In this document: positions 27,457 through 31,471 of the stretch, piece after piece | Layout of the letters: each line of letters begins with the position of its first letter | Numbering within the stretch: the stretch's first letter is position 1 | Position numbers and translations under genes: made by a program | The notes under the pieces: model-generated | What the model was told of the DNA's origin: nothing | What the model saw: the letters and a program-made list of their open reading frames with translations, nothing else | Databases searched by the model: none | DNA from: Candidatus Bathycorpusculum termitum | GTDB lineage: Archaea; Thermoproteota; Bathyarchaeia; Bathyarchaeales; Bathycorpusculaceae | Direction: 5' to 3' | Assembly (NCBI GenBank): GCA_031254875.1 | Contig: JAIRTW010000070.1 | Coordinates: forward strand, 1 to 34,216 | Length of the DNA: 34,216 nucleotides

Positions 27457-29301
27457 TCATCCGGGCTTTCTGGCTTGTTTATGGGCGAGCTCTTTTTCTT
27501 CTTTTTCGCCGTCTGTTTCCTTGTTAATTTTGGTGTAATAATATTCACCTATGCCTTTTTGGAATTTATCCATCTGACTGTCTTCCTTGTTGACGCGGGG
27601 ACGGAAAGTCACTGAGTCACGACGGAATGTGATGTCCATCTCTTTGAGGAATGCATTCATACCATTTCGCAGTGTGGTGGGGGGATGGGCGTAACCATTT
27701 TCTCCGGGTTTGCCATTGAAGACTATGAGCCGGTCAGCAACGAAGTCTTGTGTAACCACATCGTGTTCCACAACAAACGCTGGGATACCATGTGCTTCGA
27801 CGACTCGGCGCAGAGTTTTCGCTACATTTAGACGTTCCTCCACATCGAGATAGGCACTGGGTTCGTCAAGAAGTAACAAATCAGTTTTACGACTCAAGCA
27901 AGCGGCTATGGCGACTTTTTGGAGTTCACCGCCACTGAGCTCCATAACATTGCGGTCCATAAGAGCCGGCAGACGCAGGGGCGTGGCGATTTCGGTCTTA
28001 TACCAGCTTGAGGTGAAATTCTCTTTTGCCACATTCATCAGCAACTCCTGCACGGTACCCTCATAATCGGGGGCGATGTACTGCGGTTTGTAACTCACAG
28101 TGAGCTTACTTAGCTGACGTTTGTCGTCGGTCTCCTCGATACCAGCAAGTATTTTGACGAAGGTGGTTTTTCCGATGCCATTGGGGCCCAAAATACCGAT
28201 GATTTCGCCAGTACGAATTTCACCAGGCTCAATTGAGAGTTTGAAACCTGCAAAAGTTTTCTCCATCCCGGCCCATTTCAGCAAGGGTAGACCTATGTTT
28301 TCTCCGGATGTGGGCGGTTTTTCGTGAAAAACTATACTTTCTTTGCGGAACATTATGTTCTCGTCTGGAATGTAACCCTCCAGGTAAATGTTAATGCCCG
28401 TACGAACGCCGTGCGCATGACTGACAACACCATAGACTCCAGGTTCTCCATAGAAAACGCAGATTTGATCGCTAAGATAGTCGATGATGGCTAAATCATG
28501 CTCGGCGACTATGATTGTTTTCTGCTGTTCCTTAAGGCTACGGATCGCCCGGGCCACGACAAGACGCTGTTTAACATCTAAATAGCTACTGGGCTCATCG
28601 AAGAGGTAAACATCTGCGTCTCGGCTTAGAGCCGCCGCAACCGCCACCCGCTGGAGCTCACCGCCGCTAAGTACATCGAGCGCACGGTCCCAGATATTTT
28701 TGAGTTCCAAATCTTCAGCGATGATATCAAGCTGTTTACGCTCATCCACCTTGTCAAGGAGATCTCCGGCTTTTCCCCTAACAACTTTGGGAATTTTGTC
28801 GACATATTGGGGCTTGCTACTGACTTTAAGTTTTTTTTCACTCAGCCGCATAAAATAATCCTGCAGACTTGAACCACGGTAATACTGGATAATTTCGTTC
28901 CATTCCGGCGGCGCATTAAATTTACCCAAATTGGGTTTGATTTCGCCGCTGAAAACTTTGAGTGTGGTGCTTTTGCCGATACCATTCTGCCCCAAAAGAC
29001 CTAACACTGTACCCGGGGAGGGCATGGGAAGCCGGTAGAGTTTGAAGCTGTTTTCGCTGAAGCGATGACTGCAGTCTTTTTCGAGTTCGTCTGGAAGGTT
29101 GACGATGCTTATTGCTTTGAATGGACATTTTTTGACACAGATACCACACCCGCTACAGAGGGTTTCGGAGATCACAGCTTTGTTGCCCTCCACTCTGATG
29201 GCTTCAACCCGACTACGCACCATGGGACAGAAGTTTACACAAAGCTGGTTGCATTTTTTGACTTTGCATCGGTCAGTGTCTAATACGGCGATTCGCGTCA
29301 T
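27457..29301 (-). CDS. abcE1: ribosome recycling ATPase ABCE1 (Rli1)
   Basis: A 614-residue ABCE1. The N-terminal iron-sulfur domain has Cys 12, 17, 21 and 25 and then the ferredoxin-like set Cys 49, 52, 55 and 59. Two ABC ATPase domains follow: Walker A GQNGIGKST (about 104-112) and GPNGIGKTT (about 374-382), with signatures LSGGELQRVAVA and LSGGELQKVAIA. ABCE1 splits 70S ribosomes after termination with aRF1/Pelota. Length is normal; the C-terminus has a basic/acidic extension of about 25 residues. It is transcribed alone, from a TATA box about 38 nt upstream. Confidence 0.97.
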   Translation of the reverse strand: MTRIAVLDTDRCKVKKCNQLCVNFCPMVRSRVEAIRVEGNKAVISETLCSGCGICVKKCPFKAISIVNLPDELEKDCSHRFSENSFKLYRLPMPSPGTVLGLLGQNGIGKSTTLKVFSGEIKPNLGKFNAPPEWNEIIQYYRGSSLQDYFMRLSEKKLKVSSKPQYVDKIPKVVRGKAGDLLDKVDERKQLDIIAEDLELKNIWDRALDVLSGGELQRVAVAAALSRDADVYLFDEPSSYLDVKQRLVVARAIRSLKEQQKTIIVAEHDLAIIDYLSDQICVFYGEPGVYGVVSHAHGVRTGINIYLEGYIPDENIMFRKESIVFHEKPPTSGENIGLPLLKWAGMEKTFAGFKLSIEPGEIRTGEIIGILGPNGIGKTTFVKILAGIEETDDKRQLSKLTVSYKPQYIAPDYEGTVQELLMNVAKENFTSSWYKTEIATPLRLPALMDRNVMELSGGELQKVAIAACLSRKTDLLLLDEPSAYLDVEERLNVAKTLRRVVEAHGIPAFVVEHDVVTQDFVADRLIVFNGKPGENGYAHPPTTLRNGMNAFLKEMDITFRRDSVTFRPRVNKEDSQMDKFQKGIGEYYYTKINKETDGEKEEKELAHKQARKPG

Positions 29302-29853: not shown

Positions 29854-30261
29854 TTAAAGACCTAATTCGATGAGTTTTCGGGGACTGTTGATTTCTATAG
29901 CTTTGGTTCCTGTGGCGACGCTTGATAGTTTGGGGTTGGCTTCTGAACCCAAAGTAACCACAACGCTGTCCTTATACGAGAGCGTAACCGTGATACCTGC
30001 CTCAGATAATTGTTCAGCAACCCCTTTGAGCATTCCTATGCTGTTGCGGACAGAGGTAATTTGGTCAAATGCCTTTGTTATACCTTTGTTTTTATCTGCA
30101 ACCCGCGTAGCTACAAGTGTTTCTTTTAGGATGTCCTTGTTTAGGGCTTTGATGTCGATTTTTTTGTCGATTGCCTCGATTTCAAGGGCTTCAGTGTTGT
30201 TGGCAGATACTGTGACTTTTCCTGACTTCACAATCTCAGCCAAAAACGTTGCAAGAGCCAT
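29854..30261 (-). CDS. hypothetical protein (unknown, paired)
   Basis: A 135-residue soluble protein with no family I recognise. The first 60 residues are helix/strand mixed and rich in K, D and I (IDKKIDIKALNKDILKETLV); the centre has a helical TSVRNSIGMLKGVAEQLSEA segment; then come strands ITVTLSYKDSVVVTLGS. It ends near a conserved-looking SPRKLIELGL. It follows a 69-residue gene by 19 nt on the same strand, so the two are probably cotranscribed. No membrane segment, cysteine or nucleotide-binding motif. Confidence 0.7.
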   Translation of the reverse strand: MALATFLAEIVKSGKVTVSANNTEALEIEAIDKKIDIKALNKDILKETLVATRVADKNKGITKAFDQITSVRNSIGMLKGVAEQLSEAGITVTLSYKDSVVVTLGSEANPKLSSVATGTKAIEINSPRKLIELGL

Positions 30262-30280: not shown

Positions 30281-30490
30281 TTAAGGTTTTGCTTCTTTGG
30301 CGTACACTATATCTAAAACGATAGAACCATTGAGTCTTGCCTTAAACCGACCCAAGTCAAGAGTTAAATCTTGGAAGCTTAGCTTCAAGTCAGATTCTTT
30401 CCCAGCGAGCCTATCCATAACTGCTACAATTGTTGCAGCCATATTCTCAGCAGATTTTTCGAGTGGTTTTTCAATTTTTGTCTCTACCAT
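30281..30490 (-). CDS. small hypothetical protein (unknown, paired)
   Basis: A 69-residue protein. An N-terminal amphipathic helix (LEKSAENMAATIVAVMDRLA) is followed by three or so strands (LKLSFQDLTLDLGRFKARLN, GSIVLDIVYAK). It precedes the 135-residue gene by 19 nt. The compact helix-strand layout and close pairing suggest a small two-component complex, but this is inference. Confidence 0.65.
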   Translation of the reverse strand: MVETKIEKPLEKSAENMAATIVAVMDRLAGKESDLKLSFQDLTLDLGRFKARLNGSIVLDIVYAKEAKP

Positions 30491-30960: not shown

Positions 30961-31084
30961 AAACGCCTATGTTATCTCAACCAGCGTAAAGCCATTAGCG
31001 CAAAAGAAACTTCCGCGCAATCAATTTTGTCCCAAAAACCAAATTTAAAGAAAAGTATGTAAAGGATGTATACTTAAACTGAGT

Positions 31085-31153
31085 TTACCATTCTTCTTCT
31101 TCCCATTCTTCATCTTCGCCTTCTTCCCATTCTTCTTCTTCTTCGAATATCAG
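31085..31153 (-). CDS. candidate acidic Glu/Trp micropeptide with non-standard start
   Basis: A perfect ribosome site GGAGGTG (31167-31161) is followed, 7 nt later, by CTG and a frame that encodes 22 residues: LIF, then EEEEEWEEGEDEEWEEEEW and TAA. No ATG, GTG or TTG is available in this frame after the preceding TGA. The same site region contains ATG ATG (31172) opening an overlapping frame of 20 residues, mostly arginine, ending at 31110. A TTTAAAAC TATA-like box lies about 45 nt upstream of the ribosome site. Either the peptide starts at CTG/ATA, a frameshift joins the frames, or only the GAA-repeat is being seen. Confidence 0.25.
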   Translation of the reverse strand: MIFEEEEEWEEGEDEEWEEEEW

Positions 31154-31160
31154 CTCTTTT

Positions 31161-31167
31161 CACCTCC
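31161..31167 (-). promoter_or_regulatory. perfect Shine-Dalgarno GGAGGTG without an obvious gene
   Basis: GGAGGTG on the minus strand is fully complementary to the archaeal 16S rRNA 3' end and lies downstream of a TATA-like TTTAAAAC (31211-31219). The only frames behind it are the micropeptide candidates described above. Confidence 0.45.
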
Positions 31168-31471
31168 ATCATAAACCGCAATAACGCTACCTACTCCCAG
31201 CAGGTTTTAAAGATTTAGATTCGTCAACTGTCGTTAAAACTGAACATAAGCTTTGGGAAAAACGGTTTTTACGTCAAGTTTTTGTACGTTTTTAAACGCT
31301 TAAACACCCTAACCAAAAATAATAGCAATAAAAACCATCACATATACACAATTTTGATTAAGAAAAACAAACAAAACAAAAACAAATAACGTGGACCTAT
31401 TGGTTATTTTATTTTTACAATTCTTTACGCCACCATTATAATTCCCCTTCCAAGCTACACCCGATATATAA

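Follow-up and report, generated by a model that had tools for sequence, protein, structure and literature searches.

A conserved Glu/Trp-rich microprotein gene of Archaea, often found near the gene for the ribosome-recycling ATPase ABCE1

A perfect ribosome site in front of an open reading frame (ORF) without any standard start codon raises the question of whether so short an ORF is a gene at all and, if it is, what its product might do. Such a site is present in the window, which is the whole stretch of 34,216 nucleotides from Candidatus Bathycorpusculum termitum that was analysed here. A first-pass annotation, made from the letters alone, had noticed a GGAGGTG with a TATA-like box on its 5' side and a Glu/Trp-rich acidic frame running to a TAA. 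These elements are indeed present; the coordinates were correct and the strand, which had been left out, is the minus one. The Arg-rich frame with an ATG, described as overlapping the acidic one, was also found: starting from ATG or TTG it yields MMEVKRADIRRRRRMGRRRR, and it overlaps the ribosome site.

The acidic frame and its homologues

The features of the locus, and the genes up to that of ABCE1, are collected in Table 1. The microprotein ORF is present in a single copy in its own genome, its DNA is GA-rich with period-3 and period-15/24 repeats, and within the T-rich stretch on the 3' side of its stop codon a TTTTT is found at 31038-31034 of the minus strand. Rfam and tRNA scans gave no match, and scans for sigma-70 type promoters and stem-loop terminators were uninformative here, since the organism is an archaeon.

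Table 1. Features of the microprotein locus and of the genes up to ABCE1 in the window.
Feature	Position	Strand	Remarks
Glu/Trp microprotein ORF, 22 codons, LIFEEEEEWEEGEDEEWEEEEW	31085..31153	minus	conserved acidic frame, third-position substitutions, TGG invariant at two sites
CTG start codon of microprotein ORF	31153-31151	minus	
TAA stop codon of microprotein ORF	31087-31085	minus	
Shine-Dalgarno GGAGGTG, 7 nt 5' of start codon	31161..31167	minus	
TATA-like TTTAAA, ~53 nt 5' of start codon	31206..31211	minus	
T-rich stretch TTTAAATTTGGTTTTT 3' of stop, putative archaeal terminator	31034..31049	minus	
Overlapping Arg-rich frame MRFMMEVKRADIRRRRRMGRRRR, judged noncoding	31110..31181	minus	interrupted in 36/62 relatives
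69-aa gene, between microprotein and ABCE1	30281..30490	minus	no Pfam match
135-aa gene, between microprotein and ABCE1	29854..30261	minus	no Pfam match
ABCE1/Rli1, ribosome-recycling ATPase	27457..29301	minus, downstream of microprotein	Fer4_RLI, ABC_tran

BLASTN searches with 181 bp around the ORF gave matches in 77 of 101 relatives; for the more distant of these the alignment contracted to the GGAGGTG...TGGTAA core, ending just past the TAA. In 62 homologous ORFs of the window's type, the minority letters at codon positions 1, 2 and 3 were 59, 73 and 324, respectively, so that 71% of them fall at the third position. Glu codons switch between GAA and GAG, or with the Asp codons GAT and GAC, while the Trp codons at the two fully conserved sites are TGG in all the ORFs; the Arg-rich frame (+2) contains stops in 36 of the 62. 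The selection on the acidic frame that had been suggested from its regular EEW units is supported by these counts. What would have refuted it, an acidic frame broken in the relatives, did not occur, and the frame that is conserved is the acidic one. The acidic frame is far beyond a chance ORF and, as judged from the pattern of substitutions, its Glu-Glu-Trp units are kept as protein.

The lack of a standard start holds for the window, in which the ORF begins with CTG, and does not extend to the family. The relatives show ATG, in some cases GTG, at or beside the position of this CTG (for example MIFEEEDDWEEGEDEEWEEEEW), and the homologous ORFs start with ATG in 41 cases and with GTG or TTG in 6; for the remaining 15 no start was called by a script rule that ignores CTG and scans only a short distance upstream. 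The CTG is, therefore, a local oddity, peculiar to one genome. Either this genome uses a rare start codon here or an error was made in sequencing or assembly; the data cannot tell which. Expression signals accompany the ORF in the relatives: GGAGGT or GAGGTG lies 5' of it in 39 of the 62 homologues, 56 of the 62 have a TATA-like motif at a distance of 35-110 nt on the 5' side (20.3 in shuffles), and all 62, which are Bathyarchaeal-type loci, have a T-run within 60 nt past the stop codon. Taken together, coding substitutions, start codons, TATA-like motifs and T-runs indicate a gene that codes for protein and has transcription signals of its own. The micropeptide originally proposed is thus backed by the coding signature of its homologues, its expression remaining inferred; that the gene exists is nearly beyond doubt, while its function is a matter of inference.

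Distribution of the family and its gene neighbourhoods

Proteins of this kind, here called EW microproteins, are about 20-60 aa long and occur across Bathyarchaeia and in Sulfolobaceae-, Desulfurococcales-, Pyrodictiaceae- and Thermoproteaceae-type genomes, many of their hosts being archaea of hot springs, soil and gut. A scan for WEEEEW followed by a stop codon in 84,980 prokaryote species, with one genome per species, gave 88 places, and titles were listed for 80 of them. All of the listed loci are archaeal, Candidatus Bathycorpusculum contigs being among the matches, with the exception of three bacterial ones (L105, L130 and L138) in which the frames are unrelated; the eight unlisted loci encode EW peptides too. 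Representative peptides are MFEEEWWEEEEEEEWWEEEEEWEEEEW in Desulfurococcales- and Sulfolobales-type genomes, MQPPKKKKVEEIEEEEFFEEEEFEEWEEDWEEEEDWEEEEW in Thermococcus and MPIWYYREEEEWEEEEELWEEFEEEWEEEEEW in family f34, whose name, Thermoproteaceae-type, was inferred from its proteins; a Scotarchaeum peptide reads MAPLYEEEW..., and one EW peptide was found in Nanobsidianus. Around a Thermococcus genome, 31 of 61 genomes contain the microprotein, and the forms of this group have a basic N-terminus. On the other hand, four families (f29, f41, f44 and f48) showed no micro-ORF upstream of ABCE1, nor did the pattern search of those genomes find one, so that the EW microprotein is not universal.

The composition of 104 distinct tails was 68% Glu, 18% Trp and 7% Asp, with 5 as the commonest Trp-Trp spacing. 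The Trp at the end is partly imposed by the search patterns; in a scan upstream of ABCE1 that did not demand it, all the peptides except one ended in Trp, the exception ending in Phe.

Additional EW-like paralogues were observed apart from ABCE1 in three genomes (L023, L033, L035, L062 and L063, in G017, G022 and G012), and those at L033 and L035 precede a related gene pair, with a protein that looks RecA/KaiC-like. Family f9 (L250, L251, L252, L066, L069, L071 and L077) has a form of 40 residues that begins with the basic MSRRKTPPK... and is not beside ABCE1; the gene upstream of it mostly encodes a similar protein of ~217 residues. Moreover, two zinc-ribbon proteins (L155, frame ending 3022, and L301, frame ending 1515) carry long, EW-like acidic tails that contain Trp and end in it, the former being LysW-like by Pfam, below the cutoff.

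In Thermoproteota the EW ORF is usually placed shortly upstream of the gene of ABCE1, the ATPase that splits ribosomes once a round of translation has ended. In the window the two are separated by 1.8 kb and two small genes, whose homologues occupy the same place, right after the microprotein, at L002-L007 and L010. At 63 of the 80 loci with listed titles, ABCE1 follows on the same strand and begins no more than 1.6 kb away; in many genomes the EW ORF is only 40-170 nt upstream of it. In the Sulfolobaceae-type family f39 the spacing of 40-48 nt would permit a shared transcript, against which the T-run at all 62 Bathyarchaeal-type loci speaks. In the reverse test, which started from 70 ABCE1 loci across the phylum, 22 had an acidic Trp-containing micro-ORF upstream and on their own strand, versus 2 with one on the opposite strand and none in shuffled sequence; no EW tail fused to ABCE1 was seen at any of the 70. 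Several genomes have the order Cgi121-like gene, divergent gene without Pfam match, EW gene and ABCE1, with an RPB9-like zinc-ribbon gene interposed in some of them. As for other features of these regions, an RPB9-like zinc-ribbon gene lies between EW and ABCE1, or beside ABCE1, at L256, L257, L269 and L270, and at L217 and in other f33 genomes the open frame with the ABCE1 iron-sulfur motif is ~925 residues long versus ~600, a possible fusion or extension.

This arrangement is not general. The EW gene and ABCE1 are close together but on opposite strands in family f28 (L269 and L270) and, from coordinates, at L306 (f42, ~2.5 kb) and L307 (f38, ~1.5 kb); the EW gene is on the same strand at L271, about 4-5 kb beyond the ABCE1 start, and is not upstream of ABCE1 at L024. 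In f34 (L261-L268) it precedes the gene of S-adenosylmethionine decarboxylase instead of ABCE1, and in the Thermococcus group it has neighbours other than ABCE1. Some of the loci away from this arrangement have other genes of translation as neighbours: in Nanobsidianus (L275) aIF1A is directly downstream, at 32-335 after the EW stop, and at L306 aIF1A and the RIO kinase gene RIO1 lie beside it, at -1514 to -657 before the EW stop. A solitary copy (G017:C56), with a convergent gene downstream, differs from the window's peptide in 1 of its last 17 residues. The opposite-strand and distant loci argue against a leader peptide acting in cis and for a microprotein acting in trans; we have little doubt that this is a real gene of the latter kind.

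Possible roles of the microprotein

Equipped with a promoter, a ribosome site and a terminator of its own, the gene would be expected to give a monocistronic transcript of ~130 nt and to produce a highly acidic peptide of 22 residues with regularly spaced tryptophans and a Trp at the C-terminus. Such a peptide, acidic, aromatic and probably helical or flexible, would require a basic and hydrophobic partner surface. The genomic link points to ABCE1 or to the 30S, the subunit on which ABCE1 remains after splitting. The peptide may bind either or both by multivalent acidic-aromatic contacts, the last of them made by the terminal Trp, and, once bound, could tune ribosome splitting, ABCE1 release or re-initiation. 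We propose tentatively, and at slightly less than even confidence, that the EW microprotein is a small translation accessory factor acting at ABCE1/30S; its expression, partner and mechanism are all inferred. An AlphaFold model of one 43-residue variant, run without alignment, gave a lone helix (mean pLDDT 82) and was uninformative on binding.

In Thermoproteaceae-type genomes and in the Thermococcus group the family stands apart from ABCE1, so that the genomics does not require a role specific to ABCE1. The microprotein could instead act in trans as a nucleic-acid mimic, or as an acidic chaperone for basic proteins such as ribosomal proteins, chromatin proteins or RNA polymerase, the proximity to ABCE1 being only the ancestral gene order in Thermoproteota. 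Its conservation without that linkage, the basic N-terminus of the Thermococcus-group forms and tails whose Glu and Trp contents suit a polyanion with stacking groups all fit this explanation; however, the link to ABCE1 survives inversion and gene insertion, beyond what gene-order drift suggests, and the alternative neighbours include aIF1A and RIO1. We regard such a general role as a serious competitor, itself somewhat short of even odds, and rank the accessory role at ABCE1/30S as slightly more likely; the evidence does not settle the matter.

A leader peptide was considered first. Acidic runs destabilise translating ribosomes, and a short upstream ORF with an acidic nascent chain could sense recycling capacity and control ABCE1 in cis; that many genomes have it shortly 5' of ABCE1 and on the strand of that gene, and that a Trp-stop ending stands in front of a recycling factor, would fit such a switch. 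The opposite orientation in f28, the other locations elsewhere, the two genes and 1.8 kb that intervene in the window and the T-run after the stop in all 62 homologues speak against it, and orientation and location led us to reject it; it is largely refuted as a general account, and we find it improbable. Even less credible is that the GA-rich tract is conserved as DNA or RNA, a purine-rich motif or a non-coding RNA, rather than as protein: the repeats would be expected of it, but not the third-position bias, the two invariant TGG sites among alternating GAA, GAG, GAT and GAC, or the presence of start codons and ribosome sites, and no Rfam match was obtained. Finally, the Arg-rich frame, in spite of its own ATG and its overlap with the ribosome site, can practically be ruled out as the product by its stops in more than half of the relatives.

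Comparison with known systems and significance

Searches of Pfam with six variants and of NCBIfam with five (E<=10) gave no match except one weak TOPRIM_C, and a match to the eIF3j family was not obtained. Two sequences and a 17-sequence profile found no match among PDB chains (E<=10), a test limited by low-complexity filters, and no paper on the EW motif was found in the open-access literature. The EW family therefore appears to be undescribed, while its kind, the small acidic accessory microprotein, is already known; individual members may carry a hypothetical-protein annotation in some genomes.

The N-terminus of eIF3j/HCR1, a partner of ABCE1/RLI1, is an acidic stretch with spaced Trp. The likeness to the EW peptide is one of composition and does not rest on homology; eIF3j is far longer and has a C-terminal domain, whereas the EW peptide corresponds to the acidic Trp part only, with no demonstrable homology. 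Our best guess, by analogy and without data on ABCE1 binding, is that the EW peptide may functionally resemble this N-terminus. In yeast, HCR1 interacts with RLI1/ABCE1 and extra RLI1 suppresses the hcr1 deletion (PMC3836723), and eIF3j assists ABCE1 in recycling (PMC7196836). The tail of the archaeal stalk protein aP1 binds translation factors including ABCE1 (PMC6791870) and is likewise short, flexible and acidic with a hydrophobic end (for example SEEEALAGLSALFG). However, aP1 belongs to the large subunit, bears a conserved Leu-Phe motif and lacks Glu/Trp repeats, whereas EW is a separate gene; the EW peptides could not be assigned to aP1, as they have no Pfam match and their tails end in Trp and not in that motif.

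Leader peptides and acidic uORFs of the trpL and mgtL types are also short ORFs, often 5' of a regulated gene, and acidic or Trp-rich; by contrast, EW genes carry promoter and terminator signals of their own and are retained even where they stand in divergent orientation to the supposed target or at a distance from it. The LysW amino-carriers are likewise small proteins of archaea, and their C-terminus is acidic and contains Trp, but they have a zinc-ribbon domain and end in Glu, whereas EW proteins lack any further domain and have Trp as their last residue; with neither a zinc ribbon nor a C-terminal Glu, EW peptides do not qualify as LysW. Two LysW-like proteins with Trp-rich tails stand separate from them.

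A bolder reading, which we put forward only as a possibility and somewhat more doubtfully than either the accessory or the general role, is that the family is an ancient unannotated archaeal translation factor of 20-60 residues, working with ABCE1 on the 30S as a minimal counterpart of the eIF3j acidic region; it would have been overlooked because gene finders and homology filters pass over anything so small and so low in complexity.

Neither archaea nor eukaryotes can do without ribosome recycling by ABCE1 and, to our knowledge, hardly any regulators of the archaeal enzyme have been identified. A Glu/Trp protein of 22 residues is too small for usual gene finding, and the present family illustrates how deep the conservation of very short, low-complexity proteins can be even when every annotation library searched here misses them. 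Conserved in two phyla of Archaea and linked to the gene of ABCE1, the microprotein is a direct, testable candidate for such a regulator.
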